NCBI GenBank assembly: GCA_900314535.1
Contig: OMVT01000013.1
Span: forward strand, 1-52,308
DNA length: 52,308 nucleotides
Direction of reading: 5' to 3'
From: an uncultured Olsenella sp.
GTDB lineage: Bacteria; Actinomycetota; Coriobacteriia; Coriobacteriales; Atopobiaceae
Shown here one piece after another: positions 23,862 through 41,600 of this stretch (its first letter is position 1; each line of letters starts with the position of its first letter). The notes under the pieces are model-generated. The model made no database searches, was not told where the DNA came from, and saw only the letters and a list, made by a program, of their open reading frames with translations. The position numbers were made by a program, and so were the translations under genes.

Positions 23862-24899
23862 CTACGACGTGCTCGCAGACACGTACACGCCGTCGAGCTT
23901 GTTGTCGAAGAGCTCCACGATGCCGTACTTGCGGTACTTCATCATGTACGAGTCCAGCGACTCCAGCTCGTCGGGAGAGAAGACCCTCGAAGCCACGTGC
24001 TTGTCGAACTTGATGACGGCGGATCGTTCCACCACCATGAAGTTGATGTCCAGGCCGGGTGTGGTCGTCATCTCGTAGTAGGTGCCCAGGTTCGCCTTCG
24101 TCGGGCTCGCCACCTCGGTGTACACGTAGGGGCTCGCCGATGTCCCGCTGCCCGAGCGCGTGTAGTAGGTCTTCGCGCTGTCGACCTCGGTGTCGCTCGT
24201 CAGCTCGTAGACGGCGGCGCGCTTCTGGTATCCGAAGCCGTCATCCCCGCCGGATAGCAGGTCGATGGCCGTGTAGAAGCGCACCTGCGGGACTTCCACC
24301 ACGCGGGAGAAGCGTTCCATCACGCGGTTCGAGCGGTTCGGGTTCGCGTAGGAGAAGTCGTCGAGCACGCCCTTGAGCGTCGGCGTGATGAACAGGATGC
24401 GGCTGCCCGTGGAGACCTGGTCCTCGTCCATCGCGCTGGTCACGGTGCGCAGGTCCTCCAGCACGTCTTCTGCATCGGCGGAAGCATAGCTCTCGGATGC
24501 GACCGTCACACCCGTGTGCCCCGCGATCTCCGCGAAGGTGAAGGCGTCGGCCTCGGGTGCGACCTGCGTGCGCTGGAGCTCCGCGCCCGCCTCGACGAAG
24601 CAGTCCAAAACGCCGGCTTCCTCGACATCCATGACGTCCGCCATGAGCCGGATTCCGCGGTCGTAGTTGAAGGTCTTCGTCTCGAAGGCGTAGTTGATGC
24701 TGCCCGTCTTGTATCCGACGTTTCGGGTGTAGTCGCCAAGTCCAGAGACCTCGATCTTCGGAATCATGATCTCCTTGGCGTTGCGGCCCGCGCGGACCAT
24801 GCGACGCCCGCTGGTCAGGCACCCCGAAACGCTCGCACGCTGGTAGACGGCGTCGAGTATCGAGGTGTAGTTCTTGGTGTATGCAATCGAGTTGGACAT
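23862..24899 (-). CDS. Major capsid protein (HK97-like fold)
   Basis: The protein has 345 residues. The N-terminal part (SIAYTKNYTSILDAVYQRASVSGCL) and blocks such as IMIPKIEVSGLGDYTRNVGYKTGSI, LMADVMDVEEAG and FITPTLKGVLDD match capsid proteins of actinobacterial and clostridial siphophages. An inserted stretch (about 230-275, rich in Ser, Thr and Tyr) may be a surface domain. It follows the scaffold gene by 13 nt. Confidence 0.85.
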   Translation of the reverse strand: MSNSIAYTKNYTSILDAVYQRASVSGCLTSGRRMVRAGRNAKEIMIPKIEVSGLGDYTRNVGYKTGSINYAFETKTFNYDRGIRLMADVMDVEEAGVLDCFVEAGAELQRTQVAPEADAFTFAEIAGHTGVTVASESYASADAEDVLEDLRTVTSAMDEDQVSTGSRILFITPTLKGVLDDFSYANPNRSNRVMERFSRVVEVPQVRFYTAIDLLSGGDDGFGYQKRAAVYELTSDTEVDSAKTYYTRSGSGTSASPYVYTEVASPTKANLGTYYEMTTTPGLDINFMVVERSAVIKFDKHVASRVFSPDELESLDSYMMKYRKYGIVELFDNKLDGVYVSASTS

Positions 24900-24912: not shown

Positions 24913-25404
24913 TTAGTCGTTGTCGGTATCGTCCAGCCCGGCGAGCTTGCGCCAGCGTTTCACGGTTTTACCTTCGTCGGAGCTCGTGCCAGCGTTGGGA
25001 AGCCCCGTCCTGCCACCTTGCTGGGAGGTGGGGACGTCGGCGAAGAGCCATGGCTCCTCGGCCTTGAGCTTGTCGATGTCGCCGCCGTGGTCGTCCAGAA
25101 CGGCACGCGCCGCCTTGATGTTGCGCACGCCTGCCAGCTGCAGTTTGAAGTCGATACGGTCGGACTCTCCCTGGGCCTTCAGCTCGGCGATCTCACCGCG
25201 AAGCGCTTCGGCTGCTTCGGCGTTCTTGGCGGCATCAGCCACCTGCTGCTCAAGCGCCGCAATCTTCTCGTCGCGCTCGGCGATGGCCTTCTCCCAGTCC
25301 ACACTGCTCACCTGCGGCTGCTCTTCCTGCGTTTGCTGCTGCCCGATGTCTTCCTGGGCTTGCGGCTCTTCCTGCGTCTCTTCGCCATGGTTATCACCAG
25401 CCAT
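24913..25404 (-). CDS. Capsid scaffold protein
   Basis: The product has 163 residues: an acidic Glu/Gln-rich N-terminus, a coiled coil (about 38-85: DWEKAIAERDEKIAALEQQVADAAKNAEAAEALRGEIAEL) and a basic C-terminus (KTVKRWRKLAGL). This is the usual composition of DUF4355-type phage scaffolds. The ATG at 25404 with GAAAGG 8 nt upstream is preferred to a GTG three codons before. Normally it directly follows the portal or a minor head protein; here 12 kb separates it from the portal. Confidence 0.8.
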   Translation of the reverse strand: MAGDNHGEETQEEPQAQEDIGQQQTQEEQPQVSSVDWEKAIAERDEKIAALEQQVADAAKNAEAAEALRGEIAELKAQGESDRIDFKLQLAGVRNIKAARAVLDDHGGDIDKLKAEEPWLFADVPTSQQGGRTGLPNAGTSSDEGKTVKRWRKLAGLDDTDND

Positions 25405-25497
25405 ATCGGCCACCTTTCGTTTCGTGGCCGAAAACAGCTCGGCCCCTTAACCTGCGATTAGGCTAAAGGGCCGTCACAAAGTCGCTAGTAATAGAGG

Positions 25498-27501
25498 CTA
25501 TTCGATGCCAAGAGTCCGGAAGTAGACCTGATTGCGCATATTCGCATCGCGATAGATCTTGTCAAATGGCAGTACCTCAATCGTTGCCTTGAGATTGGGG
25601 TTGTACAAGACCCTGCCTTGTCCATCAGCAGTTTCTCCGAATCCACGCATTTCCATAAGCTGCCGTAGCTTAGGTGTAATGTCGCAAATCGCATAGAGGT
25701 ACATACGAGTGTTCTCGTTGACTGAGATGTATCTTCCCCTCGAGTCCCGCGCTTCGCCGTTGCGAATCTTCGTTGCATAGCGTAGGAGCTGGTCGATTGG
25801 GTTATCGCTGTCTGTGTAGTCGTCTCTATCAGGGCGTTTGAGTTCAAGGATGGTAACGGTGTCGTAGGGCAAGCCATCAGTTTCATCAGCCGAGACAAAC
25901 GTCGGATAGTTGAGGAACATGACGTCCGGCCTCTTTTCATGGGCGTTGCCGTCAAACGGTTTATCAGACGAGATGAAGCTGCTGTAGGTCAGTCGCTCGT
26001 CTATCAACCAAAGGTTGTGAGCAGGGTATGCAACATCTTCAGATGTGGTTCTCATCGGATAGATGAGCTCATGGAGATAAGCTTCGCGCTTGAATTTGCC
26101 ATCGTCCTGCCTGTTGAGCGCCGCTCGATATATGTTGAGAATTGCCCGCCTGTGGACTACGTACTCAGCAAGCATGGACTCATTCACGTCGCTCACTCGT
26201 TGTACTTGCCTGGCAAATTCTTCCTGGTATTCCTCGCTATCGATTTGGTTGCTCTCGAGCTTTCTTATGAGCTCCTTGTTGTCTGCTTGGACGGACTTCT
26301 CGACATCCCTCTTGAGCTTGTACAGGGCATCGTCCATTTCTTCGCGCGTGGCACCAATGCTGATTGCTGCCACACCTTCAGGAGCGTATTGCAATAGGTG
26401 GCGGAACTGCGGTGCTTCTTCGGTAACGTACTGCTCAACCTGCTGACGTTGCCCAGAGACGGCAGTGTCAATCAGGTCTTTCAGAAAACCACGAGCTGCT
26501 GCGCAAGCTGTTGCTGTGATGTCGTTCATGCCCACTTCGTCGAACATGCCATCTTCATCGGCAGAAATATCGAATGAAAGCCTATCCGCGCTTACATGCT
26601 CATCGAGGTATGGGCTGGTTAGCACTCCTATATAAGAGAAGCCTTGTTCATTGACAAGCCATTTATCCAGTCCCGAAGGCAGGCCGGTAAGCTTCTTGGT
26701 CATCACCTCTCGATTGTCAGCGCAAAGAATCAGGTGACATGAGGGCATACTCCGTCCAGCGACCGCCTCCGGGGTTTTCATCTTGATATGCAGCAGATTG
26801 AAAACCCTGCCGCCGATGTGAAGCTCCTCGCTATCGCTTTCGGTCTCAAGCATGCCCGCCAGCATCTGGTTGACGTCTGTCTTGTCTCCCTCATCGTCCA
26901 CAACGATCGTTGGGCAGGAATCTGCAAGCAAGTAAACGAGGCAGTGCTGCATTACTCGTTCGGCTATCTCTCTGCCAGTAGCAGGTATGTAACTGAGATA
27001 TTCGCGTTTGATGTGTCGCAGCTCCACGGAAGTGCCAGTTTCATCCTGAATCGCATCGGAAACGTCGTCGTTAATGCTCTTGCTACCTAAGCTGAATATG
27101 AATTGTCTACGATAAAGCTCGTCAGCCTCACGATAGGTGCTGTCAACGCTCACATCATCGAACACTTTAAGCCAGCAGAAGCGCCCAATGCCCTTACCGC
27201 CACGGCTCTCTTTGAGTTGGGAGTCAGAGGTCATGAAGGATTCGAAATTGACGCTATCGAAACCAATTCCGTTATCGGTTACGGTGAAGCCGGTAATCTC
27301 TCCGCGCGGCATGCTCTCATCGAGTACGGGCAAGCGGTTGAGCCTGATCTCGATCAATCCATCGCTGTTATCTATGTCGGCGTCTTCAATTGCCTGCAGC
27401 GAGTTGACTATCGTTTCGAATAGCGGCAAGAGCGCATCCTTTTTCTTCAGTGTGAAGTTCCGAATTCTGCCAGCAAAATCAACCGAGAAGTTACGTGCCA
27501 T
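25498..27501 (-). CDS. GHKL ATPase with C-terminal PD-(D/E)XK-like nuclease region
   Basis: The protein has 667 residues. GHKL (Hsp90/MutL-type) ATPase motifs are clear: N box E29..N33 (ETIVNSLQA), G1 box D76NGIG, and G2 box GGKGIGRF (101-108). A helical middle precedes a C-terminal region with HNLWLIDERL (about 495-504), RPDVMF (D526) and ILELKRP (E553, K555), which fits a PD-(D/E)XK nuclease. AAAGGGGG lies just before the ATG. It is the last gene of the restriction-like island, 58 nt after Res. Codon use looks more AT-rich than its neighbours. Confidence 0.75.
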   Translation of the reverse strand: MARNFSVDFAGRIRNFTLKKKDALLPLFETIVNSLQAIEDADIDNSDGLIEIRLNRLPVLDESMPRGEITGFTVTDNGIGFDSVNFESFMTSDSQLKESRGGKGIGRFCWLKVFDDVSVDSTYREADELYRRQFIFSLGSKSINDDVSDAIQDETGTSVELRHIKREYLSYIPATGREIAERVMQHCLVYLLADSCPTIVVDDEGDKTDVNQMLAGMLETESDSEELHIGGRVFNLLHIKMKTPEAVAGRSMPSCHLILCADNREVMTKKLTGLPSGLDKWLVNEQGFSYIGVLTSPYLDEHVSADRLSFDISADEDGMFDEVGMNDITATACAAARGFLKDLIDTAVSGQRQQVEQYVTEEAPQFRHLLQYAPEGVAAISIGATREEMDDALYKLKRDVEKSVQADNKELIRKLESNQIDSEEYQEEFARQVQRVSDVNESMLAEYVVHRRAILNIYRAALNRQDDGKFKREAYLHELIYPMRTTSEDVAYPAHNLWLIDERLTYSSFISSDKPFDGNAHEKRPDVMFLNYPTFVSADETDGLPYDTVTILELKRPDRDDYTDSDNPIDQLLRYATKIRNGEARDSRGRYISVNENTRMYLYAICDITPKLRQLMEMRGFGETADGQGRVLYNPNLKATIEVLPFDKIYRDANMRNQVYFRTLGIE

Positions 27502-27559
27502 CTTGCCCCCTTTCTTATGTTTGCGTTGCCATACTATGGTGCCGTCACAATTTCATACC

Positions 27560-30500
27560 TTACAAGCTCACCGAGTGGTATGTGGTCCGCACGTCATACT
27601 CCACATCCACCTGCAATGCCTCGAAGTGCCGCCTCGCGCATCGAATCTTGGTCTTCTCGGCGTCGCTCACGCGGATGTTGTTGTTCCCGCCGCCCTTGGT
27701 TTCCACGACAAAGTAGACACGGCGCTCGCCGTCCTCCTCGACCACGTAAGCCCAGTCGGGGTTGTAGCTGCCCAGAGGTGTGTCGATCTTGAACTTGCTC
27801 GGAAGCTTCGCGAATACGCGCACTTCCTCGGCAAGGTCGAGCTCCACCGCAAAGGGTTGCTCAACGGTAGAAGAGTCGTACACGACGTAGCTGTACAGGC
27901 TCTTGCCGCTCTTCGGACGCCAGGCATTCTGCCCCAGATACGCTTTCAGCTCGCCGGGGTCGAGGTCTTCCATCGTGTACCAGTCCTCGTCGGGCAGCTT
28001 CGTGTACTTGATGCCTTCCGCAATCGCCTCGCCCTTGGCCTTCTCGATCTTCTGCGCAACCTGCGCGAGGAACGTGGCCGGATCGACCTCGAACTCGTCG
28101 TAGCGCCCGCACTCCTCGAGGACGCGCTTGAGCGTGGCGCGGGTGAGCCCCACGGCGTCCTGCAGCTCGGCGATGGGGTCGGGCAGGTCGTACACGCGAG
28201 CCCCGCCCGTCTTCACGATGGACGTGCCGGTCGCGGTGGCGTCAATCCCGGCGTCTCCGACGGCTAAGTCGGCCCTGGTGGATAGCACTTCGAGCGGCTT
28301 CACCTTCGGCATGCCCTTGATGAGCTCCACGGCGTCGGCGATGAGCTTCTCCGAGTCAACGTCCACCTCGAAGCGCGTGCGCCTGCGTATGCGCTCCCAT
28401 AGCTCTTGGAAGGCGGGGTCGTCGGTGACGTCCTTCTGGAGTTCCACCTCCACCTCGGTTGCCTTGTCGCGAATCTGCAGCTTCTGCGCCTTGTGCAGGA
28501 TGATGTCCTCCACCTGCGACTGCGCGGATTCGAGCCCCGATGGCATCTCCACGCAGCCCTTCTCGGCCGCCTCCTTGAGCTCGGGAGTGATGTTGCCCTT
28601 CTTGTCTACGAGCCCTTTTGCGGCAAAGCTCTGGTACACCTCGGCGCTCTGCTCGAAGCCCAGCTTCACCTCCTGGCCGTCAGGCAGCTCTATGGTCACC
28701 TTCGTGAACGACTCGGGCGTCAGCACGCCGAAGCGCAGGCCGTCCTTCTCGAACTCGGTCTGCAGCCCGCTCGCGAAGGCGTCGTAGCTCTCGTTGGCGA
28801 TGACGGTGAGCACGTTGGCGTCCTCGTCGTAGCAACGCTCGCCATCTTGGTCGACGCACAGGCGAAGCCCACGCCCGACCTTCTGGCGCTTGGTCATGGT
28901 GTCTTTGGTCTCAACCAGCGTGCAGATCTGGAACACGTTCGGGTTGTCCCAGCCCTCCTTGAGCGCCGAGTGCGACCAGATGAACTGGATGCGCTTCTTT
29001 GCCCGTGTCTCCTCGTCGTCACCGTCTGCCGGGAACGAGATCAGCGTCTCCTTCTCGCGCATGATGGTCTCGAAGGTCGATATGTCGGCTGCCGTGCTTG
29101 CGGCCGCGCTCGTGTTCTTGATGCGGCCCTTGCCGTCCTGCGAGAAGTAGCCGGAGTGCACGGCCGCGGCGTCGGTGTCGAGCATGAGCCCGGCGGCGGC
29201 GTACTTCTTCTGCCAGCGCGGGCTCGCCACGGCATCGGCGTACTCCTGCTCGAACATCTCGGCGTACTCGCCGTTGCGCACCGGGTCGTACAGGCGGTAC
29301 TTCTCAACCTTGTCGATGAAGAAGAGGCTGAGCACCTTGATGCCGCGCGGCGCGAGCTCCAGCTGCCGCTGCAGGTGGTCTTCGATGGTGCGCCGGATCT
29401 GGGCGCGCTTCACGGCCTCGTCGGCCACGTCGCCTACGGCCTGGCCCTTCTCCAGCCACTCGCCGTTGGTGAACTCTATCCATTCGTCGCCGTCGGCGGC
29501 CGATATGTTGCTCACGATCCATCCGGCCTCGTAGTCGGTGTTCTCGCCGCTCTTGTCAAAGAGCGAGTCGTGCGTCCTTACGGTCACGGCCTTGCGCTTC
29601 TGGCTGCCGTCCTTCTGCCTCACGTCGATGGTCAGTCGCGCCGTTATGGACCCGGGCGTCTTGCCCATGCGCGTGGAGTCTAGCCTCACGTACGCGCCGT
29701 TCAGGTCCGCCTGTGCGAGCACTGAGTCCACGCAGATGCCCTTCACGAGCCCCTGCTGGTAGGCGTCCACGGGCGTCAGGCGATAGACCTTGTTGTAGCC
29801 CTCCTTGTGTGTGGCGGAGTAGCGCAGCACGAAGAGCGGGTTCAGGCTGCGGATGGCTGCCTTTGCCTTGGCGGTGTTGTCAACGCTCTGCGGCTCGTCG
29901 ATGATGACGATGGGGTTGCAGGCGGCCACGACCTCGCGAGGCGATCGCCCGCCGATGAGCCGCTCGCTCGGCCGATGGAAGAGCGAGCTTGATTCCACAT
30001 TGCCCTCATCGGAGTAGTCCCGGTTGAACGCCTGGATGTTGATGATCATCACCTGGATGGAGCTGCTGGTGGCAAAGTTGCCCACCGGCCCCATGTCCTT
30101 GCTGTCGTAGACGAAAACGTCCATCGGTGAGTTGTCGTAGAGCGTGGCGAAGTGCTTCTTCGTGCTTTGGAAGCTTTTCAGAACGCCCTCGCGGATGGCA
30201 ACGCTCGGAACCACGATGAGGAACTTGGTGATGCCGTACTTCTTGTTCAGCTCGAAGATGGTTCTGGTGTACACGTAGGTTTTGCCCGTGCCAGTCTCCA
30301 TCTCGATGGTGAAGTCGCGCAGCTTGCCGTCGGTGAGCACGTTCGTAGCAGGAAGCGAGTTTTCCTCCTGGATGTCGTGCAGGTTCTCAAGAAGCTGGTT
30401 GGCCGACAGGCGTAGGCCGTTGGCGTGGCCCACGCTGAGCACTTGGCCCTCCATGAGGGTGCCTGCAGCGCCGACTTCGCCCGTGAACTCGCTCTTCAGG

Positions 30501-30592
30501 AACTCCTGCCCGCGGAACAGGTCGGTGATGGCCTCCACGGCCTCCACCTGGTGTCTCTGGTCGGCGGAGTACTTGAGCTCTAGGGTCGCCAT
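27560..30592 (-). CDS. Type III-like restriction endonuclease subunit (Res: helicase + nuclease)
   Basis: The protein has 1010 residues. A superfamily 2 helicase core shows Walker A METGTGKT (98-105), a DEPQ-type Walker B (IIDEPQSVD), YSATH (motif III) and QKVGRGLRL (motif VI). The C-terminus has NPDW (D946) and VVETKGG (E964, K966), the PD-(D/E)XK nuclease seen in type III Res proteins such as EcoP15I. The ATG at 30592 follows the Mod stop by 2 nt. With Mod it should cut unmodified DNA after ATP-driven communication between sites. Confidence 0.9.
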   Translation of the reverse strand: MATLELKYSADQRHQVEAVEAITDLFRGQEFLKSEFTGEVGAAGTLMEGQVLSVGHANGLRLSANQLLENLHDIQEENSLPATNVLTDGKLRDFTIEMETGTGKTYVYTRTIFELNKKYGITKFLIVVPSVAIREGVLKSFQSTKKHFATLYDNSPMDVFVYDSKDMGPVGNFATSSSIQVMIINIQAFNRDYSDEGNVESSSLFHRPSERLIGGRSPREVVAACNPIVIIDEPQSVDNTAKAKAAIRSLNPLFVLRYSATHKEGYNKVYRLTPVDAYQQGLVKGICVDSVLAQADLNGAYVRLDSTRMGKTPGSITARLTIDVRQKDGSQKRKAVTVRTHDSLFDKSGENTDYEAGWIVSNISAADGDEWIEFTNGEWLEKGQAVGDVADEAVKRAQIRRTIEDHLQRQLELAPRGIKVLSLFFIDKVEKYRLYDPVRNGEYAEMFEQEYADAVASPRWQKKYAAAGLMLDTDAAAVHSGYFSQDGKGRIKNTSAAASTAADISTFETIMREKETLISFPADGDDEETRAKKRIQFIWSHSALKEGWDNPNVFQICTLVETKDTMTKRQKVGRGLRLCVDQDGERCYDEDANVLTVIANESYDAFASGLQTEFEKDGLRFGVLTPESFTKVTIELPDGQEVKLGFEQSAEVYQSFAAKGLVDKKGNITPELKEAAEKGCVEMPSGLESAQSQVEDIILHKAQKLQIRDKATEVEVELQKDVTDDPAFQELWERIRRRTRFEVDVDSEKLIADAVELIKGMPKVKPLEVLSTRADLAVGDAGIDATATGTSIVKTGGARVYDLPDPIAELQDAVGLTRATLKRVLEECGRYDEFEVDPATFLAQVAQKIEKAKGEAIAEGIKYTKLPDEDWYTMEDLDPGELKAYLGQNAWRPKSGKSLYSYVVYDSSTVEQPFAVELDLAEEVRVFAKLPSKFKIDTPLGSYNPDWAYVVEEDGERRVYFVVETKGGGNNNIRVSDAEKTKIRCARRHFEALQVDVEYDVRTTYHSVSL

Positions 30593-30594
30593 GG

Positions 30595-32481
30595 CTACAC
30601 CGTCCTCAGCTCTACCTCGCGGCCCGTCTTCTCCTCGACGCGCTTGAACGCCTGCACGGCGTTGAGCTTGGTGGTGTCGTCGAGTATGCGGTCGAGCATG
30701 AGTACGCGCCTCGGCTCCATGTCGGCGATTGCGTCGAGCACCTGCATGCTCAGGCCATCGGCTAGGCAGCAGACGAGCTCGCCACAGGCGACCGAGTAGC
30801 AGGGGTAGCCAGCCGCATCCACTTTCTCGATGGGGAGGGTAAGCTCTAGGCCCCACTTGAGCATCATCTCGAAGATGATGTCCTCGTCGCTGCGGTCAGG
30901 CTTCACCACGTCGAGCAGTAGCTCGCCGGGTTTCGGCCGCACGATGCCGCTCTCGTCGAGCTTGAGAACGCGGAAGCCGATGTCGGGGACGGGCCTGGGC
31001 GCTTCACCAAGTCGGAGCTGCTTGTTGGACTCCTCGACATCTGCTGTGATTTTGGCGCCGGCCCTTCGGATGCGCTCTTTGCCAATCTCGCAGAGATTAT
31101 GCGGTACTCCCATTTTTTCGCACAGTGCTATAGCGTTTTTCAGAGTTGTACGGCTGTCATTCGGTGCAGTTTTAAGTTGATCATCGAGGTTTTCGGGCAG
31201 CTGTATGGAGAAGCATTTGCGCGTGCCTCCATCAAGCCCATTCATCTGCATAACTGCATCGGCGGTGGTCGATGATCCCGCAAAGAAATCCATCACGAAG
31301 CAGTCTTTACTTTCTGGCACCAAGCCTAATATGTAGCGAATAAGACTGACGGGCTTTGGAGTTTGAAAAACGTCCTCTGGCAACAATTCGAGCAGTTCGT
31401 ACTTTGCCTGACGGTTATGCCCTGTTTTCGACAAGTCAATCCAAAGCGAAGAAGGCGGGACGCCCTTCATGTCAGCCAGGTAAGTCCGCCTCTTAATATT
31501 GGTCATGTTTGCATTAAAGTAAATCTCGCCGCGTGCCATCATCTCATCAAGAGTTTCACGTGACCAACGCCAGCCATTTTTGGGAGGATGGATGACATAA
31601 CCATTTGGCGCAATAATGTCATAGCGTAGATTTTCCCGATAATTCGGCGAATTAAGGGGATTGCCGTCGAACCATGGCCCGCGTGGATCGTTATCAGGGT
31701 TTTTAAAGTGCGACTGCTTCTCGGGATCCGACTGCCTAAGCGGCATCCATCCAGCCATTTTCGAATAGACAAGAATCGTGTTATGGTCAAGTGAGAACTG
31801 CTTAGCATCGTTGTTGCTATTGTCGGACGAGCGCCATATCACGCCGCAGACAAAGCAAGACTCACCGAATATTTCATCGCATATCTTCTTGAGGTTATCG
31901 CGCTCTCGGTCATCAATGCTGATAAAGATCGCCCCATCATCACTAAGGAGCTCTCTAGCCAATCTCAGACGAGGGTAAAGCATTGAACACCATGCAGAAT
32001 GGTAGCGGCCACCAGTATCGGCGTTTGACTGCCCAACGAGCTCCGCCTGTTCGCGATAGTTTTCTATAGTGTCCCCAAAGCGATCCCTGTAGACAAAGTC
32101 ATGCCCGGTGTTATACGGAGGATCGATAAAGATCAGCTTCATTCGACCGTGATAAGAGTGCTGCAGCAGCTTGAGAACTTCGAGATTGTCTCCCTCGATG
32201 TAGAGGTTCTCAGTTTCGTCCCAATTCACGCTCTCCTCGGGGCAGGGGCGAAGCGTGGCCGTGCTCGGGGTTTGGCTCTGACGGATAGCGTCGGTCTTGC
32301 CGGGCCAGGTAAAGGCGTATCGCTCGGTGCCCTCGTCAACCTCGTCGCCCAACACCAGGCGCAGCTTGTCGAAGTCGATGCCGCTCTCGGTGGCGACCTC
32401 CGGCAGTAGTTGCTTCAGCTGCTCGATGCGTTCCGCCACCAGATCGGCAGACGCGAGGTCCATCTTCTCGAACTCAGCCAT
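30595..32481 (-). CDS. Type III-like N6-adenine DNA methyltransferase (Mod, beta class)
   Basis: The protein has 628 residues. The catalytic motif IV DPPYNTG (120-126) comes before the SAM-binding motif I FAGSST (400-405), the order of beta-class N6-adenine methyltransferases of type III systems. The stretch between (about 150-390) holds the target-recognition region and is visibly more AT-rich at DNA level (about 31080-32000). It starts inside the DUF4391 gene with an 8-nt overlap and ends 2 nt before Res. It should both protect host DNA and set the specificity of the complex. Confidence 0.92.
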   Translation of the reverse strand: MAEFEKMDLASADLVAERIEQLKQLLPEVATESGIDFDKLRLVLGDEVDEGTERYAFTWPGKTDAIRQSQTPSTATLRPCPEESVNWDETENLYIEGDNLEVLKLLQHSYHGRMKLIFIDPPYNTGHDFVYRDRFGDTIENYREQAELVGQSNADTGGRYHSAWCSMLYPRLRLARELLSDDGAIFISIDDRERDNLKKICDEIFGESCFVCGVIWRSSDNSNNDAKQFSLDHNTILVYSKMAGWMPLRQSDPEKQSHFKNPDNDPRGPWFDGNPLNSPNYRENLRYDIIAPNGYVIHPPKNGWRWSRETLDEMMARGEIYFNANMTNIKRRTYLADMKGVPPSSLWIDLSKTGHNRQAKYELLELLPEDVFQTPKPVSLIRYILGLVPESKDCFVMDFFAGSSTTADAVMQMNGLDGGTRKCFSIQLPENLDDQLKTAPNDSRTTLKNAIALCEKMGVPHNLCEIGKERIRRAGAKITADVEESNKQLRLGEAPRPVPDIGFRVLKLDESGIVRPKPGELLLDVVKPDRSDEDIIFEMMLKWGLELTLPIEKVDAAGYPCYSVACGELVCCLADGLSMQVLDAIADMEPRRVLMLDRILDDTTKLNAVQAFKRVEEKTGREVELRTV

Positions 32482-33238
32482 GGCATAGCTCCTTTATCTC
32501 GGTTGCGAGCTTGTCGTGCTCGCGCTCCTTCTTTTTCAACGCCATACGCAGCCGCGACGACTCGGCAAGGGTCGCCTCCTTGTCACGATACTGCGAGCGT
32601 AGGACATTAATCTCGTTTTGCGAGTCCCTCAGATGGGCCAGAAGCGCCATCAGTTGGGGCGTGTCGGCGTCCTTGCAGTGCGGGTACTCGCCGATGCTGG
32701 CAATCGCCGCCGCCTTCGCCGTTCGGTCGCAAATCGCCGTCACGTACGCCAGCAGGTCCGACTGTGGTAGCGTCGCATGGCGTATGTCGGCCAGGTAGTC
32801 GGAATATGCCTGCTCGCTCGGGTCGAACAGACGCGCCGACTCGGTCCGCTCGACAACTACCGCGCCCTTCTCCGCCAGGCTCTTGCGCTTTATCGACACG
32901 GACACGCCCACCTTGCCGCCAGGTTCCTCGAACAGCAGCACGACCGGGTTGGGGAAAACTTTGTGCAGTACGGCTGCAAGTTCGCCGAATCCGCCAGAGC
33001 GCACCAGCTCGCAGCTCAGGTAGATGACGCTACCAATCTCGTGCTCATCGTCAGAGATGGGTGCGATTCGCGCCGTCGCCCGCTGTATGGTGGCGACGTG
33101 CGTCAGGCGCGAGTACTGCTTGAGCAGTTTCTCCTCAGCTTTGGTGAGGCCGCCCTGAGCGGTGAGAACTGTCTTCGGTATGGTCTTGTCGCCGGCAAGC
33201 GTGGCGCTCGGTAGGTTCAGTGTCGTAGCCCAGTCCAT
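32474..33238 (-). CDS. DUF4391 protein
   Basis: The protein has 254 residues. It begins with MDWATTLNLPSATLAGDKTIPKTVL and contains QYSRLTHVATIQRATARIAPISDDEHEIGSVIYLSCEL, recognised as the DUF4391 domain that accompanies helicase-containing type III-like modification islands. The C-terminal 60 residues are a charged coiled coil (NEINVLRSQYRDKEATL...LKKKEREHDKLATEIKEL). The ATG at 33238 is 5 nt after the helicase stop. Its role is unknown; a structural or regulatory partner of the helicase or Mod is likely. Confidence 0.8.
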   Translation of the reverse strand: MDWATTLNLPSATLAGDKTIPKTVLTAQGGLTKAEEKLLKQYSRLTHVATIQRATARIAPISDDEHEIGSVIYLSCELVRSGGFGELAAVLHKVFPNPVVLLFEEPGGKVGVSVSIKRKSLAEKGAVVVERTESARLFDPSEQAYSDYLADIRHATLPQSDLLAYVTAICDRTAKAAAIASIGEYPHCKDADTPQLMALLAHLRDSQNEINVLRSQYRDKEATLAESSRLRMALKKKEREHDKLATEIKELCHG

Positions 33239-33243
33239 GCCTG

Positions 33244-36200
33244 TCACCTCAGAACCACGAAGCTCACGAGCGAGTAGTCGTCGAAAGCGAGCGTCGTGCC
33301 GGTGCCGACCTCGCCCAGGCTGAAGAGCGATTCCATGCCCTTCTGCGCCTGAACGCCGGATACTCGGCTCACCGCCTCGTCGAGCAGTTCGGTGTACGCG
33401 CCCATGTTCGTGCCGTCGCGGGTCTCCTTGTTGAACTGCCGACAGAGATCCATCACGGGTTCGGTCACGCCAGCACACGCCGCCCGTATAATGTCGAGCG
33501 CCGCCTTCGGGTTGGTGTGAGTACCGCGAACCTCGCCGGAATCGGTCACGTAGACCAGGTGGAACGGCCAGGTCGGGTTGCCGTCCTTCGGCTTCGCCCC
33601 CTCGTCGTTGGCCTTCAGGCAGAAGACGACGCCGGGCTCCACGCTGTCCGCCAGCGTGTCCGGAATCTCGGCGACCGCATGCAGGCCGCACGGGCTGCCT
33701 TCGAGCAGTCCCGGATGCGCCTTGGCATAGCGTTCCAGCTCCACGCGGAAGTCGTCGTACGCAAGGTCGGTGATGGATATGCCGCCCGATATGTCCTCAA
33801 GGTCCATGACCTCGCGCTGCAGCTGCTCCAGCTGGCTTCGGCGGTACTTAAGGTCGTTCATCTCGTCGGCGGCCTTGCCCTCGAGGACGTTCTCCTCGCC
33901 GGTGGCCGACGTGTCGAGCAGCACCATGCGGCCTTTCACGCGCCCTTCGAGCTGGATGTACTCGTCCAATTCGATGTCGGGCCAGAAGTTCACGAGCTGC
34001 ACGCACGTGTTGTCGCTGCCGAGTCGGTCTACGCGGCCGAAACGCTGGATGATGCGCACCGGGTTCCAGTGGATGTCGTAGTTCACCAGGCAGTCGCAGT
34101 CCTGCAGGTTCTGGCCCTCGGATATGCAGTCGGTTGCGAACACGACGTCTATCTCGCCCTGCTTGCGCTCGCGCTCCGATATCTCCTTGCTCTTCGGCGA
34201 GAACCGTCCCAGGACGGCGTCGAAGGTCGTGCGCTTGAGCTTGACGGTGGCGGCAGTTCCCTTCGCGCCGGTGACGAGCGCCGACTCCATGCCGTACGTC
34301 TTCTTGAGGTAAGGATTCAGCTGCTCGTAGAGGTAGCGGGCCGTGTCGGCGAACGCGCTGAAGATGAGAAGCTTGCGGTTGCCTGGGTTGTACGGGTGGG
34401 CCACCTTCTGGTCGATGAAGCGGCGGAGTTCGGCTAGCTTCTCGTCGCGCTCGGGCGTCACCTCGTTGGCGTAGTACAGCAGCTCCTCGAGCGTGCGGAT
34501 GTCGTATTCCAGCTCCTGGCGCACGCGGATGGCGTCCACGTCGCGCAGGTCGACACGCACCTTGCCGCCCGCCTCGAACTCCTCGGCGTCATCGTCGTCG
34601 TCGAATCCGTCGGCGAGCGCGCCCGCCTCGTAGGCCGCGTTCATGCTCAAGTTGTCCAGCTGGTCGAGAAGCGTCTTCGCGCCGTCGAGCACGCGCACGA
34701 GCGTGATGCGGAAGCTGTTGATGGAGCTCTCCATGCGCTTCAGCAGGTTCACGCGCATCAGGTTCGCCACAGCGTGCGTGCGGTTCACCTGGCTCTCGAA
34801 GTCGTTGCCCCACGTGTCGGCGTAGCGGTCTGCGTATTTCTTCTGCTTGCCCGGCATCACGTAGGAGAGCAGCTGGTACTGCGCGAAGGAGAGCGATGCG
34901 ATGAGGTCGTTCATGTCGGCTATGCTCGGCAGCTCGTCCTGCGTGTCGAAGCGCGGGTGCAGCGATATCGGTTTCAGGCGCGTCGGGAACGTTGCCGTCT
35001 CGTCGCGGTAGTATTTGGCGATGTGCTTGCGCGACCGCGCGATGGTCAGGATGTCGAGCAGCTTGAAGTAGTCGGCGTTCACCATTGATACGAACCGCTC
35101 GGTCGTGCGAAGCTCGTCGGGAAGCTCGCTCCACTCTCCGAAACGTTGTTGGGCCAGGCGGCACACCGCCGTGACGGAGCCGATGCCGTCGGTGTCAGCA
35201 AGGTAGGCGTCGTCGCCCTCGGTGATAATCTCGATCTGGTTACGCAGGTCGAGGAGCTTGTTGTTCACGGGCGTCGCCGAGAGCATCAGCACCTTGGTGC
35301 GCACGCCCGCCCGGATAATGTCCTGCATCAGGCGATCGTAGCGGCTATGCTGCGTGCGGTCGGTCGGCTTGTTGCGGAAGTTGTGGCTCTCGTCGATGAC
35401 GATGAGGTCGTAGTTGCCCCAGCGCAGCGTCTCCAGGTTGATGTCACCCGAGAAGCCCGTGTAGCGGGAGAGGTCGGTGTGGTTGAGCACGTCGAAGTTC
35501 AGCCGGTCGTCCACGAGCGGGTTGCGCTCGTCGTTGCCGGTGTAGAGCGTCCAGTTCTCGCGAAGCCGCTTCGGGCACAGCACCAGCACGCGGTCGTTGC
35601 GCTCCTGGTAGTACTTGATAACGGCCAGCGCCTCGAAGGTCTTTCCCAGACCGACCGAGTCCGCGATGATGCAGCCCTTGTACCGCTCGAGCTTACGGAT
35701 GGCGCCTACCACGGCATCCCGCTGGAAGTCGTAGAGCTTGTTCCACACGGCAGAGTCGGTGAATGAGAGCCCCGGTTTTATCGGGTCGGTCTCCTCCATG
35801 TCCGCCATGAAGTCGCGGAACACGTGGTAAAGCGTCAGGAAATACACGAACTCAGGCGCGTTCTCGCGGTAGAGCGTGCCGATCTGCTCGGCGACCTGCT
35901 CGTTCACGTCGGCCACCATGGAGGGGTTGTCCCAGATGCCGTCGAACATCGCCTTCAGACCCTGCGCCTCGGCAGCTCCCGAATACGAGCCATAGCCGCC
36001 AACGACGCCGGCCTTGCGCTCGTAGCCCAGTCCCTCAAGCGTGAAGGGAAGGTTGAATCCCTGGAAGCCGTCAGCGGAGCCGTCAGCATGCGAAAGGTGG
36101 TAGACGGAGCCAGATTGCACCATGCCGCGCGAGCGTGCGGAACGGAAGGACGCCTTAGCTCGAACCCACTCGGCGCATTCATGAGCGAGAGCCCGCTGGT

Positions 36201-36492
36201 TCAGGTTATTGCGAAGCGTAAGCTCAAGCCCCGTGCCGCCGATGCCACGCTCGCGCCCGCGCTTCGAGAGCACGAACTCCTTCGGGTCCTTTAACTCGGC
36301 CATCTGCTCCACGAAAGTCGGCTCGTCGAAGAGGAAGCGAAGCTCGTCAATCTTTAGGAGCTCGTCCTTCAGCTCGCCGAAAGCGAACACGGTGAAATAC
36401 GAGCTGATAATGGAAAGCCTGTCGCCTGCGGAAAGTGCCGCACGAAGCTTGTCTCCCAGCGCGTTTACGCCCTCGTTGCTAAGAAACTCCAT
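33244..36492 (-). CDS. SNF2-type helicase with N-terminal PLD-like domain
   Basis: The protein has 1082 residues. The first 190 residues (LSIISSYFTVFAFGELKDELLKIDELRFLFDEPTF; YHLSHADGSADGFQGFN) resemble a phospholipase D-type nuclease fold, but no intact HxK motif is seen. The SNF2 core has Walker A DSVGLGKT (278-285), DESH (367-370), SATP (405-408) and a helicase C domain ending with IIQRFGRVDRLGS. Such helicases accompany DISARM-like and type III-like defence loci. It lies 4 nt after the regulator gene and 5 nt before DUF4391. Confidence 0.88.
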   Translation of the reverse strand: MEFLSNEGVNALGDKLRAALSAGDRLSIISSYFTVFAFGELKDELLKIDELRFLFDEPTFVEQMAELKDPKEFVLSKRGRERGIGGTGLELTLRNNLNQRALAHECAEWVRAKASFRSARSRGMVQSGSVYHLSHADGSADGFQGFNLPFTLEGLGYERKAGVVGGYGSYSGAAEAQGLKAMFDGIWDNPSMVADVNEQVAEQIGTLYRENAPEFVYFLTLYHVFRDFMADMEETDPIKPGLSFTDSAVWNKLYDFQRDAVVGAIRKLERYKGCIIADSVGLGKTFEALAVIKYYQERNDRVLVLCPKRLRENWTLYTGNDERNPLVDDRLNFDVLNHTDLSRYTGFSGDINLETLRWGNYDLIVIDESHNFRNKPTDRTQHSRYDRLMQDIIRAGVRTKVLMLSATPVNNKLLDLRNQIEIITEGDDAYLADTDGIGSVTAVCRLAQQRFGEWSELPDELRTTERFVSMVNADYFKLLDILTIARSRKHIAKYYRDETATFPTRLKPISLHPRFDTQDELPSIADMNDLIASLSFAQYQLLSYVMPGKQKKYADRYADTWGNDFESQVNRTHAVANLMRVNLLKRMESSINSFRITLVRVLDGAKTLLDQLDNLSMNAAYEAGALADGFDDDDDAEEFEAGGKVRVDLRDVDAIRVRQELEYDIRTLEELLYYANEVTPERDEKLAELRRFIDQKVAHPYNPGNRKLLIFSAFADTARYLYEQLNPYLKKTYGMESALVTGAKGTAATVKLKRTTFDAVLGRFSPKSKEISERERKQGEIDVVFATDCISEGQNLQDCDCLVNYDIHWNPVRIIQRFGRVDRLGSDNTCVQLVNFWPDIELDEYIQLEGRVKGRMVLLDTSATGEENVLEGKAADEMNDLKYRRSQLEQLQREVMDLEDISGGISITDLAYDDFRVELERYAKAHPGLLEGSPCGLHAVAEIPDTLADSVEPGVVFCLKANDEGAKPKDGNPTWPFHLVYVTDSGEVRGTHTNPKAALDIIRAACAGVTEPVMDLCRQFNKETRDGTNMGAYTELLDEAVSRVSGVQAQKGMESLFSLGEVGTGTTLAFDDYSLVSFVVLR

Positions 36493-36496
36493 CGCG

Positions 36497-36703
36497 CTAT
36501 CCCTTCTTTGAGGAAAGCTTCTCGATGAGAGCCTGCTTGACGAAGGAGGTGAAGGTGAGCCCCGAAAGGGAAGCCGCCTGCTTTGCCGAGTCGCGAAGGT
36601 TCTTCGGGATGCGAAGCGTCACTGGGACATTCCCACCGTCGACAAGAAACTCCTGAATCTCCGTAGGCGTGGCACCAGAATCCACAAGCTCAGAGTACTT
36701 CAT
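36497..36703 (-). CDS. Ribbon-helix-helix regulator heading the island
   Basis: The product has 68 residues. The C-terminal part (VPVTLRIPKNLRDSAKQAASLSGLTFTSFVKQALIEKL) is a ribbon-helix-helix DNA-binding motif as in CopG/HicB-type regulators. The ATG at 36703 has AGGAG 5 nt upstream; the earlier in-frame start is not needed. It is the first gene of the operon and the helicase starts 4 nt later. A small dyad 22-34 nt upstream could be its operator, so it probably limits expression of the island. Confidence 0.8.
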   Translation of the reverse strand: MKYSELVDSGATPTEIQEFLVDGGNVPVTLRIPKNLRDSAKQAASLSGLTFTSFVKQALIEKLSSKKG

Positions 36704-36724
36704 CGCAGCTCCTAAAGAATGCCA

Positions 36725-36737
36725 GTTGCAATACAAC
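36725..36737. promoter_or_regulatory. Small dyad before the ribbon-helix-helix gene
   Basis: GTTG and CAAC arms are separated by five bases (CAATA). This lies within the likely promoter of the island. Ribbon-helix-helix proteins bind short dyads of this size. On the plus strand TTGCAA (36726-36731) with TATCAG 17 bp later could also form a weak rightward promoter. Confidence 0.35.
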
Positions 36738-36899
36738 GTAAGCCATTCTATCAGAGCGAAACGTCCCATCTGTCGCTGTCGGTCGGACGCTGACGAGATA
36801 CACCGCGATTGGCAAGGCGAAAGGCCGAAACAAGAACTCCGTGGCGAAGAGACGCGCGTCTCCCGTCGTTAGAATCCGAGACAAGCCTGCATGCGCCAC

Positions 36900-37570: not shown

Positions 37571-39061
37571 CTACGAAGACCTCTTGTCGCCGACGGTACC
37601 GCCAGCTCCGATCTCGGCAGCAAGCCTGCGAGCGGTAGCCTCGTCCTCGCCGTACCAGCGAGCGCGATACTCCCACGGAGCGAGAGTGACGCCCACCTCG
37701 GCCATGTCCTGGGCCTTCTCGGCGGCGGTGTCCTGGATAATGCTGTCGTCGTACTGCACGCGAACGGAGCCCTCCTCTGGGATGCTCTCCCCGAAGCCAC
37801 GCGAGACGCACATGACCGCACGCGCGATGCTCTTGATCGCCTCCTCAAGCGCGTTCTCGTGCCGCCTGATGTTTCGCATGAGCGCCGAGTTGTCCGAGGA
37901 CACCTCCGTCGCCGTCTTGACGTACCCACGCGATTCGTCCAGGTCGAAATAGCCGATGCCAAAACCCGTGAGGTCGCCGAGCATCTGCAGCGCGATCCTA
38001 AAAGCCTCGACCTGCGAGCTCGTGCGCAGCGCCGGCGCGAACTCCTGAATGGTGTCCTCGGTCGACATGACCTTGCGGAAAACGGTGCAGTCCTGCTTTC
38101 CAAACGGGATGGAGATGGCCTTGTCACCGGTCTTCTCGCGATCGAAAAGAACGTCAGAGAGAAACACGCGCATCTTGGAGACGTCAATCTCGTTGATAAG
38201 AGCATCGAAGGTGAGGTCTACTGCCTGCACAGCATCCACGGCGTCTGCGAACACGCTCTGCCCATACGGCGACATGTCCACGCGCGTGTTGGTGACAGCG
38301 GGCTTTACGATGCCGAAGGTGGGGAAAGCGCATCCTGTATCAAACACCGGCGCGACACCCATGGGCACGAGCTCGTTCCCGTCCTTGTCGAAGCATATGG
38401 TTACGATCTTGTAGCTCTCATTGTCGTTCATGGCGAGAAGAGCGTCCGCATGGTCAGGTGAAGGTGATGAAGTGGAAGGTGAAGAAGAGCCCGCCGAGAA
38501 GCCCATGCCGCCCTTGAGGTGCATCTGCAACTGGTCCACGGCCCTCCTGCGGTAGAACGCCCGCGTGACGAAAGCGCACTCGGTAACGCCGTCCTCGTCC
38601 CACGTGAGCGGAATCACCATCCGCGCGTCGTAGTGCCGGATGCGAACCTTCTTCCTGTCGAGGTCCACCCACAGCGCCCAGGCACCAGTGCCAAGCCCGA
38701 ACGCCCTCACCACGGTAGCCTGCGCCTGCGCCATGAAGTTGGTTGAAGAGAAGAACTCGCCGATCCAGTCGGTCGCCTTCTGGTCCTCGCAAACGACCTT
38801 GACGTTCTCGTTGAGGAGAAGAGATCCCCATTCCTTGCATACGCGCATTGCCGGGTGAATGCTGCGACGGTGAACCTCGTACACCCGTCCGAGCCCGTCT
38901 TTATCGCGGTAGTCGTAGAAGTCCCCGCGAGCCCCCATCCAGTCGTCCCACGACCGAATCCACGGCTCCATGTCATCCAGGGGAAGGACAAACCCCAACC
39001 CCCGCAGATACTCCTTCACGTGCTCAGGCACCCAGTACTCGTCCAAGCTATTCACGCTCAT
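37571..39061 (-). CDS. Portal protein (SPP1 gp6-like)
   Basis: The protein has 496 residues. It has the portal pattern: SLDEYWVPEHVKEYLRGLGF at the start, then VRIRHYDARMVIPLTWDEDGVTECAFVTRAF, TFDALINEIDVSKMRVFLSDVLF and ALEEAIKSIARAVM. Twelve copies form the DNA channel at the capsid vertex. The ATG at 39061 has GGAGG 7 nt upstream; the open frame before it is leader. A minor head protein usually follows the portal; here a GC-rich segment and the restriction-like island follow instead. Confidence 0.88.
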   Translation of the reverse strand: MSVNSLDEYWVPEHVKEYLRGLGFVLPLDDMEPWIRSWDDWMGARGDFYDYRDKDGLGRVYEVHRRSIHPAMRVCKEWGSLLLNENVKVVCEDQKATDWIGEFFSSTNFMAQAQATVVRAFGLGTGAWALWVDLDRKKVRIRHYDARMVIPLTWDEDGVTECAFVTRAFYRRRAVDQLQMHLKGGMGFSAGSSSPSTSSPSPDHADALLAMNDNESYKIVTICFDKDGNELVPMGVAPVFDTGCAFPTFGIVKPAVTNTRVDMSPYGQSVFADAVDAVQAVDLTFDALINEIDVSKMRVFLSDVLFDREKTGDKAISIPFGKQDCTVFRKVMSTEDTIQEFAPALRTSSQVEAFRIALQMLGDLTGFGIGYFDLDESRGYVKTATEVSSDNSALMRNIRRHENALEEAIKSIARAVMCVSRGFGESIPEEGSVRVQYDDSIIQDTAAEKAQDMAEVGVTLAPWEYRARWYGEDEATARRLAAEIGAGGTVGDKRSS

Positions 39062-39110
39062 GCGGACACCTCCGTAAACCACGCTGATGTTCACGGTGAA
39101 GTTTCCGACA

Positions 39111-39139
39111 TTGTCACAACCTCGCCCGTGCTTTAGAAT
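39111..39139 (+). promoter_or_regulatory. Sigma-70 promoter of the plus-strand cargo gene
   Basis: TTGTCA (39111-39116) and TAGAAT (39134-39139) are separated by 17 bp; each matches consensus at five of six positions. The ATG of the plus-strand gene is 41 bp downstream. This indicates expression independent of the leftward late operon. Confidence 0.75.
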
Positions 39140-39179
39140 TCGGGAGAAAGATTGTGAAGAGAGGCCATGGGAGAAGAGG

Positions 39180-39929
39180 ATGCAGAACCGATACACAGGC
39201 GACATCGGAGACTTCAGCAAGCTCGGGCTCCTGCGTGCATTGCGAAACGCCGACCTGTCAATCGGGCTCAACTGGTACCTAACCCCAGACGAGACGCACA
39301 ACAGCGACGGTCGCCACGTGAGCTACCTCGACCAGGACGAATACCGTAAATGCGATGAGGAGCTGTGGTTAGAGCTAAGGGCCATCGTCAAAGAAGACAG
39401 GCGGAAAGTGCGCTACATGGAGAACGACCGCGTCCTCAAGGCAACGTTCTTCTCGGAATGCATCGATTTCTCTGCAAACGAAGAAGGCGAAAAGCATAGG
39501 CACAAGCCAAGGGCCGAGAGAAACGCGCTTCGCAGCGAATGGTTCGGAAGGTCGCTCGCCATGCTGGCGGGAAAAGACATTGTCTGCGTTGACCCCGACA
39601 ACGGCCTGGTGGTGCCTTCTGCCAAGGGGAAACCGAAGGAGAACAAGTACGTCCTGCCCTCCGAACTCGCCAGATACTACGCCCAAGGCTCTACCGTCAT
39701 CTATTACCAGCACAAGGCGAGATATAAGGACGATCATTACGCTCGGCAGCTCGGCGAGCTATTGAAAAGCCCAGATTTTGAAGGCGCTTCCGGTCTCGCA
39801 TTGAAGTTCAAGACAACCTCGCAGCGGTATTACATGTTCGTCATCCAGCCGCGTCATGGGGAAACGATTGAGAATGCCGTAGGTCAAATGCTCTCGTCAG
39901 CCTGGGGCAAGCATTTCCATCTGCTGTAA
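39180..39929 (+). CDS. Cargo protein of an uncharacterised MQNRYxGDxxDxxK family
   Basis: The protein has 249 residues. It starts MQNRYTGDIGDFSKLGLLRAL and contains LNWYLTPDE, VCVDPDNGLVV, and STVIYYQHKAR. I recall this arrangement (start motif, DPDNGL, YQH) in a widespread uncharacterised family often found near defence genes; that is memory, not a search. The ATG at 39180 follows GGAGAAGAGG. The gene lies on the opposite strand to portal and TerL, has its own promoter, and ends 2 nt from the TerL stop. This is the typical layout of a prophage moron gene expressed in the lysogen. Confidence 0.75.
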   Translation: MQNRYTGDIGDFSKLGLLRALRNADLSIGLNWYLTPDETHNSDGRHVSYLDQDEYRKCDEELWLELRAIVKEDRRKVRYMENDRVLKATFFSECIDFSANEEGEKHRHKPRAERNALRSEWFGRSLAMLAGKDIVCVDPDNGLVVPSAKGKPKENKYVLPSELARYYAQGSTVIYYQHKARYKDDHYARQLGELLKSPDFEGASGLALKFKTTSQRYYMFVIQPRHGETIENAVGQMLSSAWGKHFHLL

Positions 39930-39931
39930 AA

Positions 39932-41215
39932 TCAACCGCGAAGCACGTCGTCCATCACCGCGTAACGCACCGCATCAATTGAATGGTCGTCGCCGTCAGG
40001 GATGATGTCGAGCCAGTTTCCATCACGATCGCGCTCATACTCCTTCATGGCGAACTCCTCGAAGGTGAGCGGGCACCGCACCGGGTCAATCACGATCTCC
40101 CGCAGCCCTGCCAGCCACTCGTAGGAAAGCTTGCGCATGCGCCCCTTGCGGGCAGGACGTGCGCGAATGCCAAGATCTCGGCGATAAACGCTCGTCTGCA
40201 CCTTGCCGTCAGGCGTGTCGTCCACCCACACCACCTGGTCATGGAAGTACGGCTCCTCGCCAGGCTCATCGGCATAGGTGAGGGAATCGAGAACGATGCG
40301 TCCCGTCTCCTCGGGCGTCATCTTGTTGGCAGTATGTTCTTCGAAGATGATGAGCCGCCGGGACCCTGGCTGCCATTCGCACCTCACGAACCGCCACGGG
40401 TCAGGCCACCAGCCCCAGTCCAACCCGTTCCTGATGCGCTCGAATGTGCGGATCTCCTCGTCGGTAACCTCGCGCTCCACGATGTTGGAGAAGACGTTGC
40501 CGCCAGTGCCCACGACATCGCCGAGAAACTCCCAGCGCCAAGCCGTCTCATTGACCTCGCGAAGGTACTCCGCTTCCTCGATGAACGGCCCTCCTAGCCA
40601 TTCAGGGTGAGAAGAGACCACGTCGAGGTAAGAGGTCTTCCAAACGAGCGTGTCCTCCCGCTGCTTCCTTGCCAAGGTCTCCTTGTTCACCCAGCTCATC
40701 GCCGTCTTAGGCGGATTGAAGGAATAGAAGACCCAGAACCTGCTCCCACCGCGCCGGAGCGAGTTGAGAACAGACCTCACGTCCTCGATGCTCCCGTGCT
40801 GGTCCAGCTCCTCGAACCAGATGCAGGCGCAATACCCCTTGGCGAACTTCGTCGACTTCAGCTTGAGCGGATCGTCGCAACCTCTGAAAACGATTCGTTG
40901 CCCGGTCGGAATGTACACGATCTCCAGCGGCGATATCTTCGCCTTGAAGTACTCGCTCAGCCCCAGCGCGTCGATGGCCCAGAGCACCTGCGTGTAAACG
41001 GAGTCTCGAAGCGTGTTGCCGAACCTCCTAACCACGACAACGTTCACCTCGGGGTTGGCCACGGTGAGAAGGACGAGGCAGAGGGAAATGAACGAGCTCT
41101 TCGTCGAGCCGCGCCCGCCGTGAAGCCAATAGTGCGTATGCCCATGCATCATAACGTCACCGAGCACGGGATGGAAACGCTCGATGCAGAAGTCCGCCGC
41201 GCTAGTCGTCGCCAT
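39932..41215 (-). CDS. Terminase large subunit
   Basis: The protein has 427 residues. The packaging ATPase shows Walker A GGRGSTKS (33-40) and Walker B-like CACIWFEEL (about 135-143). The C-terminal nuclease has acidic residues in GLDWGWWPDPW, VWVDDTPDG and DDHSIDAVRYAV. It matches PBSX/phage terminases of the Terminase_3/6 type. The ATG at 41215 with GAGG upstream overlaps the TerS stop by 14 nt; earlier open frame is TerS in another frame. Confidence 0.93.
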   Translation of the reverse strand: MATTSAADFCIERFHPVLGDVMMHGHTHYWLHGGRGSTKSSFISLCLVLLTVANPEVNVVVVRRFGNTLRDSVYTQVLWAIDALGLSEYFKAKISPLEIVYIPTGQRIVFRGCDDPLKLKSTKFAKGYCACIWFEELDQHGSIEDVRSVLNSLRRGGSRFWVFYSFNPPKTAMSWVNKETLARKQREDTLVWKTSYLDVVSSHPEWLGGPFIEEAEYLREVNETAWRWEFLGDVVGTGGNVFSNIVEREVTDEEIRTFERIRNGLDWGWWPDPWRFVRCEWQPGSRRLIIFEEHTANKMTPEETGRIVLDSLTYADEPGEEPYFHDQVVWVDDTPDGKVQTSVYRRDLGIRARPARKGRMRKLSYEWLAGLREIVIDPVRCPLTFEEFAMKEYERDRDGNWLDIIPDGDDHSIDAVRYAVMDDVLRG

Positions 41216-41600
41216 CGGAAGACCTCGCAACCTTGAGCTCCACGCCGAGCGTGATCTGCGGGACGTCCTCGCCCTCAGCCTCGACCTTTCGGGTCGTCTG
41301 CGCGTATTCGTCGGGGTACTTGCGCTCGAGCAGCCAGGCGGCAGCCGTCCACTGCGGGTTCTTCTCGCGGGTGGCCGTCGCCATGATGGACTGCAACAGC
41401 GTCTCCTTGTATTCGGCCTCCGCCTTTTTGATGCCCTCAACTAACGCAAGTTTCACCTTGCTGTCAGGGTCCTTCAGCCACTTGTACCAGGCTGTCTCGG
41501 AGATGCCCAGCCCACGGCATATATCGGCGTTGCTCATGCCGTGCGATTTCATCTCGATGGCCTGCTCGACCATCTTGTACGTGAGCTTCGGCTTGCGCAT
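41202..41600 (-). CDS. Terminase small subunit
   Basis: The product has 132 residues. An N-terminal helix-turn-helix (TYKMVEQAIEMKSHGMSNADICRGLGISETAWYKWLKD) binds the packaging site. The following helix (GIKKAEAEYKETLLQSIMATA) and AAAWLLERKYPDEY motif are typical of TerS proteins. The ATG at 41600 has AAGGAGG upstream. It overlaps TerL. Confidence 0.9.
   Translation of the reverse strand: MRKPKLTYKMVEQAIEMKSHGMSNADICRGLGISETAWYKWLKDPDSKVKLALVEGIKKAEAEYKETLLQSIMATATREKNPQWTAAAWLLERKYPDEYAQTTRKVEAEGEDVPQITLGVELKVARSSDGDD

Follow-up and report, generated by a model that had tools for sequence, protein, structure and literature searches.

A probable helicase-augmented type III restriction core with a swappable GHKL nuclease in a prophage-borne defense cassette of an uncultured Olsenella sp.

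Six genes run in one direction in a 52,308-nucleotide stretch of DNA from an uncultured Olsenella sp. (the window), encoding, in operon order, a ribbon-helix-helix (RHH) regulator, a Snf2-family helicase, a DUF4391 protein, a DNA methylase (Mod), a restriction endonuclease (Res), and a GHKL-ATPase/nuclease. The original prediction, made from the sequence alone, saw in them one large complex combining modification, translocation, and two or three nuclease activities, and the locus raises the question of whether the six proteins form one system or several adjacent modules. All six ORFs are on the minus strand and are not interrupted by stop codons, and their coordinates give the predicted intergenic gaps of 4, 5, −8, 2, and 58 nt from the RHH gene to the GHKL gene, including an 8-nt overlap of the DUF4391 and Mod genes. 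The 68-aa RHH/CopG-like protein (36497..36703, minus strand) matched CopG/RelB-like profiles below threshold. Its gene is located upstream of the helicase gene in many relatives and was also found near the portal gene with other cargo.

Profile searches upheld the predicted domains of the larger proteins, recovering DUF4391, N6_N4_Mtase (2.1e-30 in Mod), ResIII and RE_endonuc, and SNF2 and Helicase_C. Mod (628 aa; 30595..32481, minus strand) matched the PADLOC profile MTase_III at 1.4e-185, and Res (1010 aa; 27560..30592, minus strand) matched the PADLOC profile REase_III at 2.7e-291. The nearest solved structures by sequence were EcoP15I Mod (4zcf_A, 3.8e-54) and EcoP15I Res (4zcf_C, 2.3e-59), together with other type III Mods, and the EcoP15I Res match spanned both the helicase and nuclease parts of Res. 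The motif order of Mod, DPPYN120 and then FAGSS400, is that of a beta-class N6/N4 methylase. Profile and motif checks found the SF2 helicase motifs and the C-terminal PD-(D/E)xK endonuclease domain of Res (PD...ETK) to be intact. The EcoP15I matches and the intact motifs support Mod and Res as type III restriction proteins.

We compared Mod with Mods from G292 and L057/L080, which belong to operons whose helicase and Res are 96 to 98% identical. Residues 1 to 180 and 480 to 628 mostly retained 80 to 100% identity among these near-identical operons, but identity dropped to about 10 to 50%, with insertions, across residues 211 to 450. We assign the target-recognition region to about residues 205 to 450 (31132..31869, minus strand), which is hypervariable between otherwise near-identical operons. 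In these alignments, the central variability amounts to an exchange of recognition domains, a mark of type III specificity switching, implying that the remaining operon accommodates new specificities. The Mod gene of another relative (G090; L050:6856-12102) is broken by an insert with an ORF whose N terminus resembles a ribosomal-protection translation GTPase.

The helicase (1082 aa; 33244..36492, minus strand) matched the PADLOC HKD+Snf2 profile C3a139 (2.6e-119), a candidate label for which we found no describing publication in the literature searched. Its motor motifs are intact (Walker A GLGKT281, DESH367, and QRFGRVDR816), so that the SNF2 part of the predicted PLD-like/SNF2 helicase was confirmed. 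The PLD-like part lacks its catalytic signature: in our alignment of 17 helicases, no N-terminal domain contains HxK(x4)D, the HKD/PLD catalytic motif, the window protein lacks it as well, and the sole match among the relatives fell at residue 232 of one protein, outside the PLD-like domain. The domain thus looks catalytically dead, making a third nuclease unlikely, and it probably serves as a binding platform. Modeled alone, the N terminus gave a poor fold (pLDDT 59); its best matches, to the PLD-fold enzyme phosphatidylserine synthase, were weak, and we did not count them as proof. The DUF4391 protein (254 aa; 32474..33238, minus strand; PF14335, 1.5e-23), a family named in a single paper of the literature searched, with a title on a different topic, yielded an AlphaFold2 model with a mean pLDDT of 93 that comprises a mixed alpha/beta domain and a C-terminal helical hairpin. 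Foldseek returned no significant match and no confident PDB relative for this model, and since VIA-align rows covered only the helical hairpin (residues 188 to 254), we claim no relative by fold.

Across 298 genomes of the same class, we counted 49 matches to the helicase and 46 places with DUF4391. DUF4391 was at most 200 bp from the helicase for 44 of the 49 helicases, a helicase adjoined 45 of the 46 DUF4391 genes, and a same-strand Res gene was located within 12 kb of 38 helicases, with 36 complete helicase-DUF4391-Res sets in total. Mod was found between DUF4391 and Res wherever the DNA of the locus was read. Helicases without a nearby Res were mostly near contig ends, with exceptions in G070 and G201 and a fragment in G281. 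This linkage spans divergent clades (helicases 43 to 98% identical) as well as Firmicutes phage DNA, with the identical four-gene order of helicase, DUF4391, Mod, and Res in Erysipelothrix phage phi1605 and with helicase, Mod, and Res together in two gut phage contigs. The proposal that the helicase and DUF4391 are genuine companions of Mod-Res is borne out by these counts.

The sixth gene (25498..27501, minus strand) encodes a 667-aa protein that we assign, from a 10-homologue alignment and a neighborhood survey, as a paraMORC3/VcSduA-like GHKL ATPase with a C-terminal PD-(D/E)xK nuclease. The predicted GHKL-ATPase/nuclease identity is supported by residues of the N-box, DxGxG, GxGxG, and C-terminal D...ExK motifs that are invariant in all 10 homologues (E29, N33, D76, G78, G80, G101-G106, D526, E553, and K555), but the Pfam score for GHKL was weak and under the cut-off (HATPase_c_3, 19 bits). 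The sequence carries both the GHKL motifs and the C-terminal RE-fold domain with E-D-ExK of paraMORC3, the literature name for such proteins, a subset of which are standalone (PMC2292703). VcSduA, which has the GHKL-PD-(D/E)xK architecture, confers phage protection on its own, for which both the ATPase residue and the nuclease residue (E27 and K557) are required (PMC12137116), whose counterparts in kind are E29 and K555 of the window protein. Like paraMORC3 and VcSduA (Shedu type I-D), the window protein combines an N-terminal GHKL ATPase, a middle domain, and a C-terminal PD-(D/E)xK domain. Unlike theirs, its gene is placed 3′ of type III core genes within a prophage rather than alone. The protein had no match to the Shedu DUF4263 profile at an E value of ≤0.01. 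No PDB chain was matched by the GHKL profile.

The GHKL gene was present in only 3 of the 298 same-class genomes, each time inside a core operon. It is located 3′ of Res in the window and in G292 and between DUF4391 and Mod in G212, where the copy is split and 42% identical. The interruption of the G212 gene (L037:9339-12592) is an extra 1.2 kb, and that operon also has a gene for a Mutator-family transposase, located between GHKL and Mod. Occurrence of all three genes in core operons, together with the divergence and different position of the G212 copy, may reflect some functional preference for the core. Elsewhere, we surveyed 88 loci with GHKL homologues (80 genome and 8 plasmid loci, some on short contigs) and detected no DUF4391 or Mod neighbor; their neighbors included one distant HKD-Snf2-like protein, one short Res fragment, and a few helicase-core fragments. 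The plasmid loci included standalone placements and a neighborhood in which a type I restriction-modification (RM) operon is accompanied by its own Shedu gene; the Shedu neighbor observed on a plasmid of V. fluvialis is a gene distinct from the GHKL homologue. The GC content of the window GHKL gene is 0.508 versus 0.61 to 0.63 for the helicase, DUF4391, and Res genes. Because it starts only 58 nt downstream of Res, it is probably cotranscribed with the core.

Other core operons contain different extra genes. We observed a GmrSD restriction gene after Res in a related prophage (L041), an AAA gene after Res in L045, a radical-SAM/DUF5131-like gene and a second gene without assignment after Res in L040, and in L054, between DUF4391 and Mod, a SIR2-like gene accompanied by a HerA-like ATPase. 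The L041 GmrSD is 86% identical to a GmrSD at the same terminal place behind BREX cargo (L222), and other terminal genes are likewise common to unrelated main systems (L181 with L195 and L210 with L212). These findings indicate that end gene and main system assort independently of each other.

The distribution of the GHKL gene bears directly on the single complex of the original prediction, here taken as one in which all six genes would act together and the GHKL nuclease would be an obligatory effector fired by a Mod-Res-Snf2 sensor. Shared direction, short gaps, and confinement of all three same-class GHKL genes to core operons are consistent with such a complex, as is the published prediction that, in restriction operons, MORC/paraMORC ATPases work together with helicases of SF2 (PMC2292703). 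Nevertheless, 33 of the 36 core sets lack a GHKL gene, the 88 homologue loci elsewhere are without DUF4391 or Mod, GmrSD can occupy the same place and is common to BREX cargo, and the GC content of the GHKL gene (0.51) is foreign, making a single integrated complex very improbable. The neighborhood test thus divided the predicted gene set, with Snf2 and DUF4391 traveling with Mod-Res but GHKL joining few core sets. The idea of two or three nuclease activities in one complex is likewise not supported, since the PLD-like domain is without HKD and the GHKL nuclease is a separate module.

An opposite possibility is that three independent systems are merely adjacent, with Snf2/DUF4391 as a defense unit of its own, Mod-Res as an ordinary type III system, and GHKL as the third. 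About a dozen of the 58 Res matches in the same-class genomes were without a helicase, indicating that ordinary Mod-Res pairs exist in this class too and that the Res family is able to act without the helicase, and some relatives have other genes inserted between DUF4391 and Mod. We regard this possibility as unlikely, given that helicase and DUF4391 almost always have Res nearby unless a contig ends, apart from the three exceptions above, that DUF4391 and Mod overlap in the window, and that the linkage persists across clades and in Firmicutes phage DNA. Our findings support, with good confidence, a third model in which a prophage-borne defense cassette carries a type III RM core augmented by a helicase and, as a separate module, a swappable GHKL nuclease.

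In this model of a core with a separate nuclease, the RHH regulator, Snf2 translocase, DUF4391, Mod, and Res would constitute a first module. The EcoP15I-like Mod, probably an N6-adenine methylase, would use its exchangeable recognition domain to mark a site that is asymmetric, and unmodified invading DNA would be recognized by Mod-Res, after which Res would move or signal along DNA at the expense of ATP and cut with its PD-ExK domain. Considering that the PLD-like domain is without catalytic residues, Snf2 and DUF4391 probably assist Mod-Res by loading, remodeling, or translocating DNA and do not cut. The second module would be the single GHKL-ATPase/PD-(D/E)xK gene plugged in at the 3′ end, which probably restricts phage DNA alone. 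Both modules would shield the lysogen, and hence the prophage, from other phages.

Gene-content profile searches agreed with the predictions that the locus goes beyond a classical Mod-Res pair and is neither DISARM nor BREX. Like EcoP15I-class type III systems, it has a beta-class Mod with an exchangeable recognition domain, an SF2 Res with a C-terminal PD-ExK domain, and the Mod-Res gene order; unlike them, it has a Snf2 translocase with a degenerate PLD-like domain and DUF4391 as constant extras, plus an RHH gene, upstream of Mod. With DISARM it shares a methylase and a Snf2-like helicase of partial DrmD similarity (154 bits versus a family cut-off of 610), but none of the six proteins matched DrmB (DUF1998) or DrmC, and similarity to DrmD and DrmA was restricted to the helicase core. 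Neither PglZ nor BrxC of BREX was matched by any of the six. Hma is defined by the HmaA helicase, HmaB methylase, and HmaC ATPase (PMC8565338), and we found only partial similarity to the HmaA helicase core and no HmaB or HmaC match. Hma and the BREX-related DUF499 systems resemble this locus in placing a helicase, a methylase, and an ATPase in a single operon, but here the methylase is a type III Mod and the ATPase is GHKL rather than DUF499. We found no named system for the exact six-gene set in PADLOC, NCBIfam, or Pfam. We read the locus as being of a known kind, type III RM, in a new helicase-augmented form that is joined by an interchangeable plug-in and occupies a prophage defense hotspot. 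Telling the real unit of four genes and a regulator apart from the attached plug-in allows experiments to target the right unit, and DUF4391 gains a context in which its function can be tested, as does this Snf2 family, whose PLD-like domain looks catalytically dead.

The original prediction did not include the location of the operon in a prophage head module. Integrase, primase, terminase, portal, scaffold, capsid, and tail genes flank the operon, which is prophage cargo between portal and scaffold. All on the minus strand, the slot is bordered upstream by the portal gene (37571..39184, start codon uncertain; phrog_533, 2e-80; A118 portal) and downstream by the scaffold gene (24913..25413; sub-threshold Phage_scaffold match of 9.7e-5, assigned by position and homologues), with the terminase large subunit (39932..41440, start uncertain; phrog_3717, 5.4e-50) and the major capsid protein (23862..24899; phrog_422, 9.1e-68) beyond them. 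A terminator-like hairpin of the phage backbone with a 14-bp stem (25440..25473, minus strand) marks the cargo/scaffold border, and near-identical hairpins precede scaffold in L170, L195, L221, and L222, relatives whose cargo is unrelated.

As close relatives we took pairs of portal and capsid genes whose portal was ≥60% identical, 38 in all. Their portal-capsid gap was 1.3 to 16.6 kb (median, 10.5 kb) and exceeded 5 kb in 36 of the 38; G278 (1.6 kb) and G118 (1.3 kb) are without cargo. The gap in eight distant relatives was 2.4 to 3.3 kb. Sampled cargo matched BrxC/PglX BREX, type I, II, IIG, and III RM, PDC-S06, MkoA, IetS, and Ppl. Most sampled slots (L056-L079 and L170-L224) hold BREX genes or RM genes of type I, II, IIG, or III; several proteins from these slots had no PADLOC match. 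In this prophage family, the slot between portal and scaffold is a hotspot for defense cargo. P2/P4-type hotspots similarly offer exchangeable defense cargo at a fixed phage locus; they are reported to be about 3 kb long and without BREX and type I RM (PMC9122126). In contrast, the slot described here is in the head module, between portal and scaffold, and is about 10 kb with BREX and type I RM included. A locus among head genes that holds 5 to 17 kb of exchangeable defense exceeds the described P2/P4 hotspot size. These results raise a broader model, to which we give about an even chance, where a temperate-phage family keeps a dedicated, two-part exchangeable defense locus in its head operon (portal, main RM/BREX system, terminal plug-in, terminator, and scaffold) and Snf2-DUF4391-Mod-Res is one main cartridge, which would form an unnamed type III restriction class in its own right that needs a non-nuclease Snf2 motor and DUF4391.

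The DNA of the neighboring phage genes had no megablast match in named phages, and the capsid comparison gave Eggerthella phage PMBT5 (35%) as the nearest named phage found. The roughly 860 nt that separate portal from the RHH gene (36710-37570) have a GC content of 0.66 and no obvious conserved gene on the operon strand, and this stretch is possibly a promoter or control region for the cargo. A 280-aa ORF between portal and terminase (39087-39929, plus strand) matched no family in Pfam, NCBIfam, or PHROGs and is conserved in many relatives at 64 to 99% identity.
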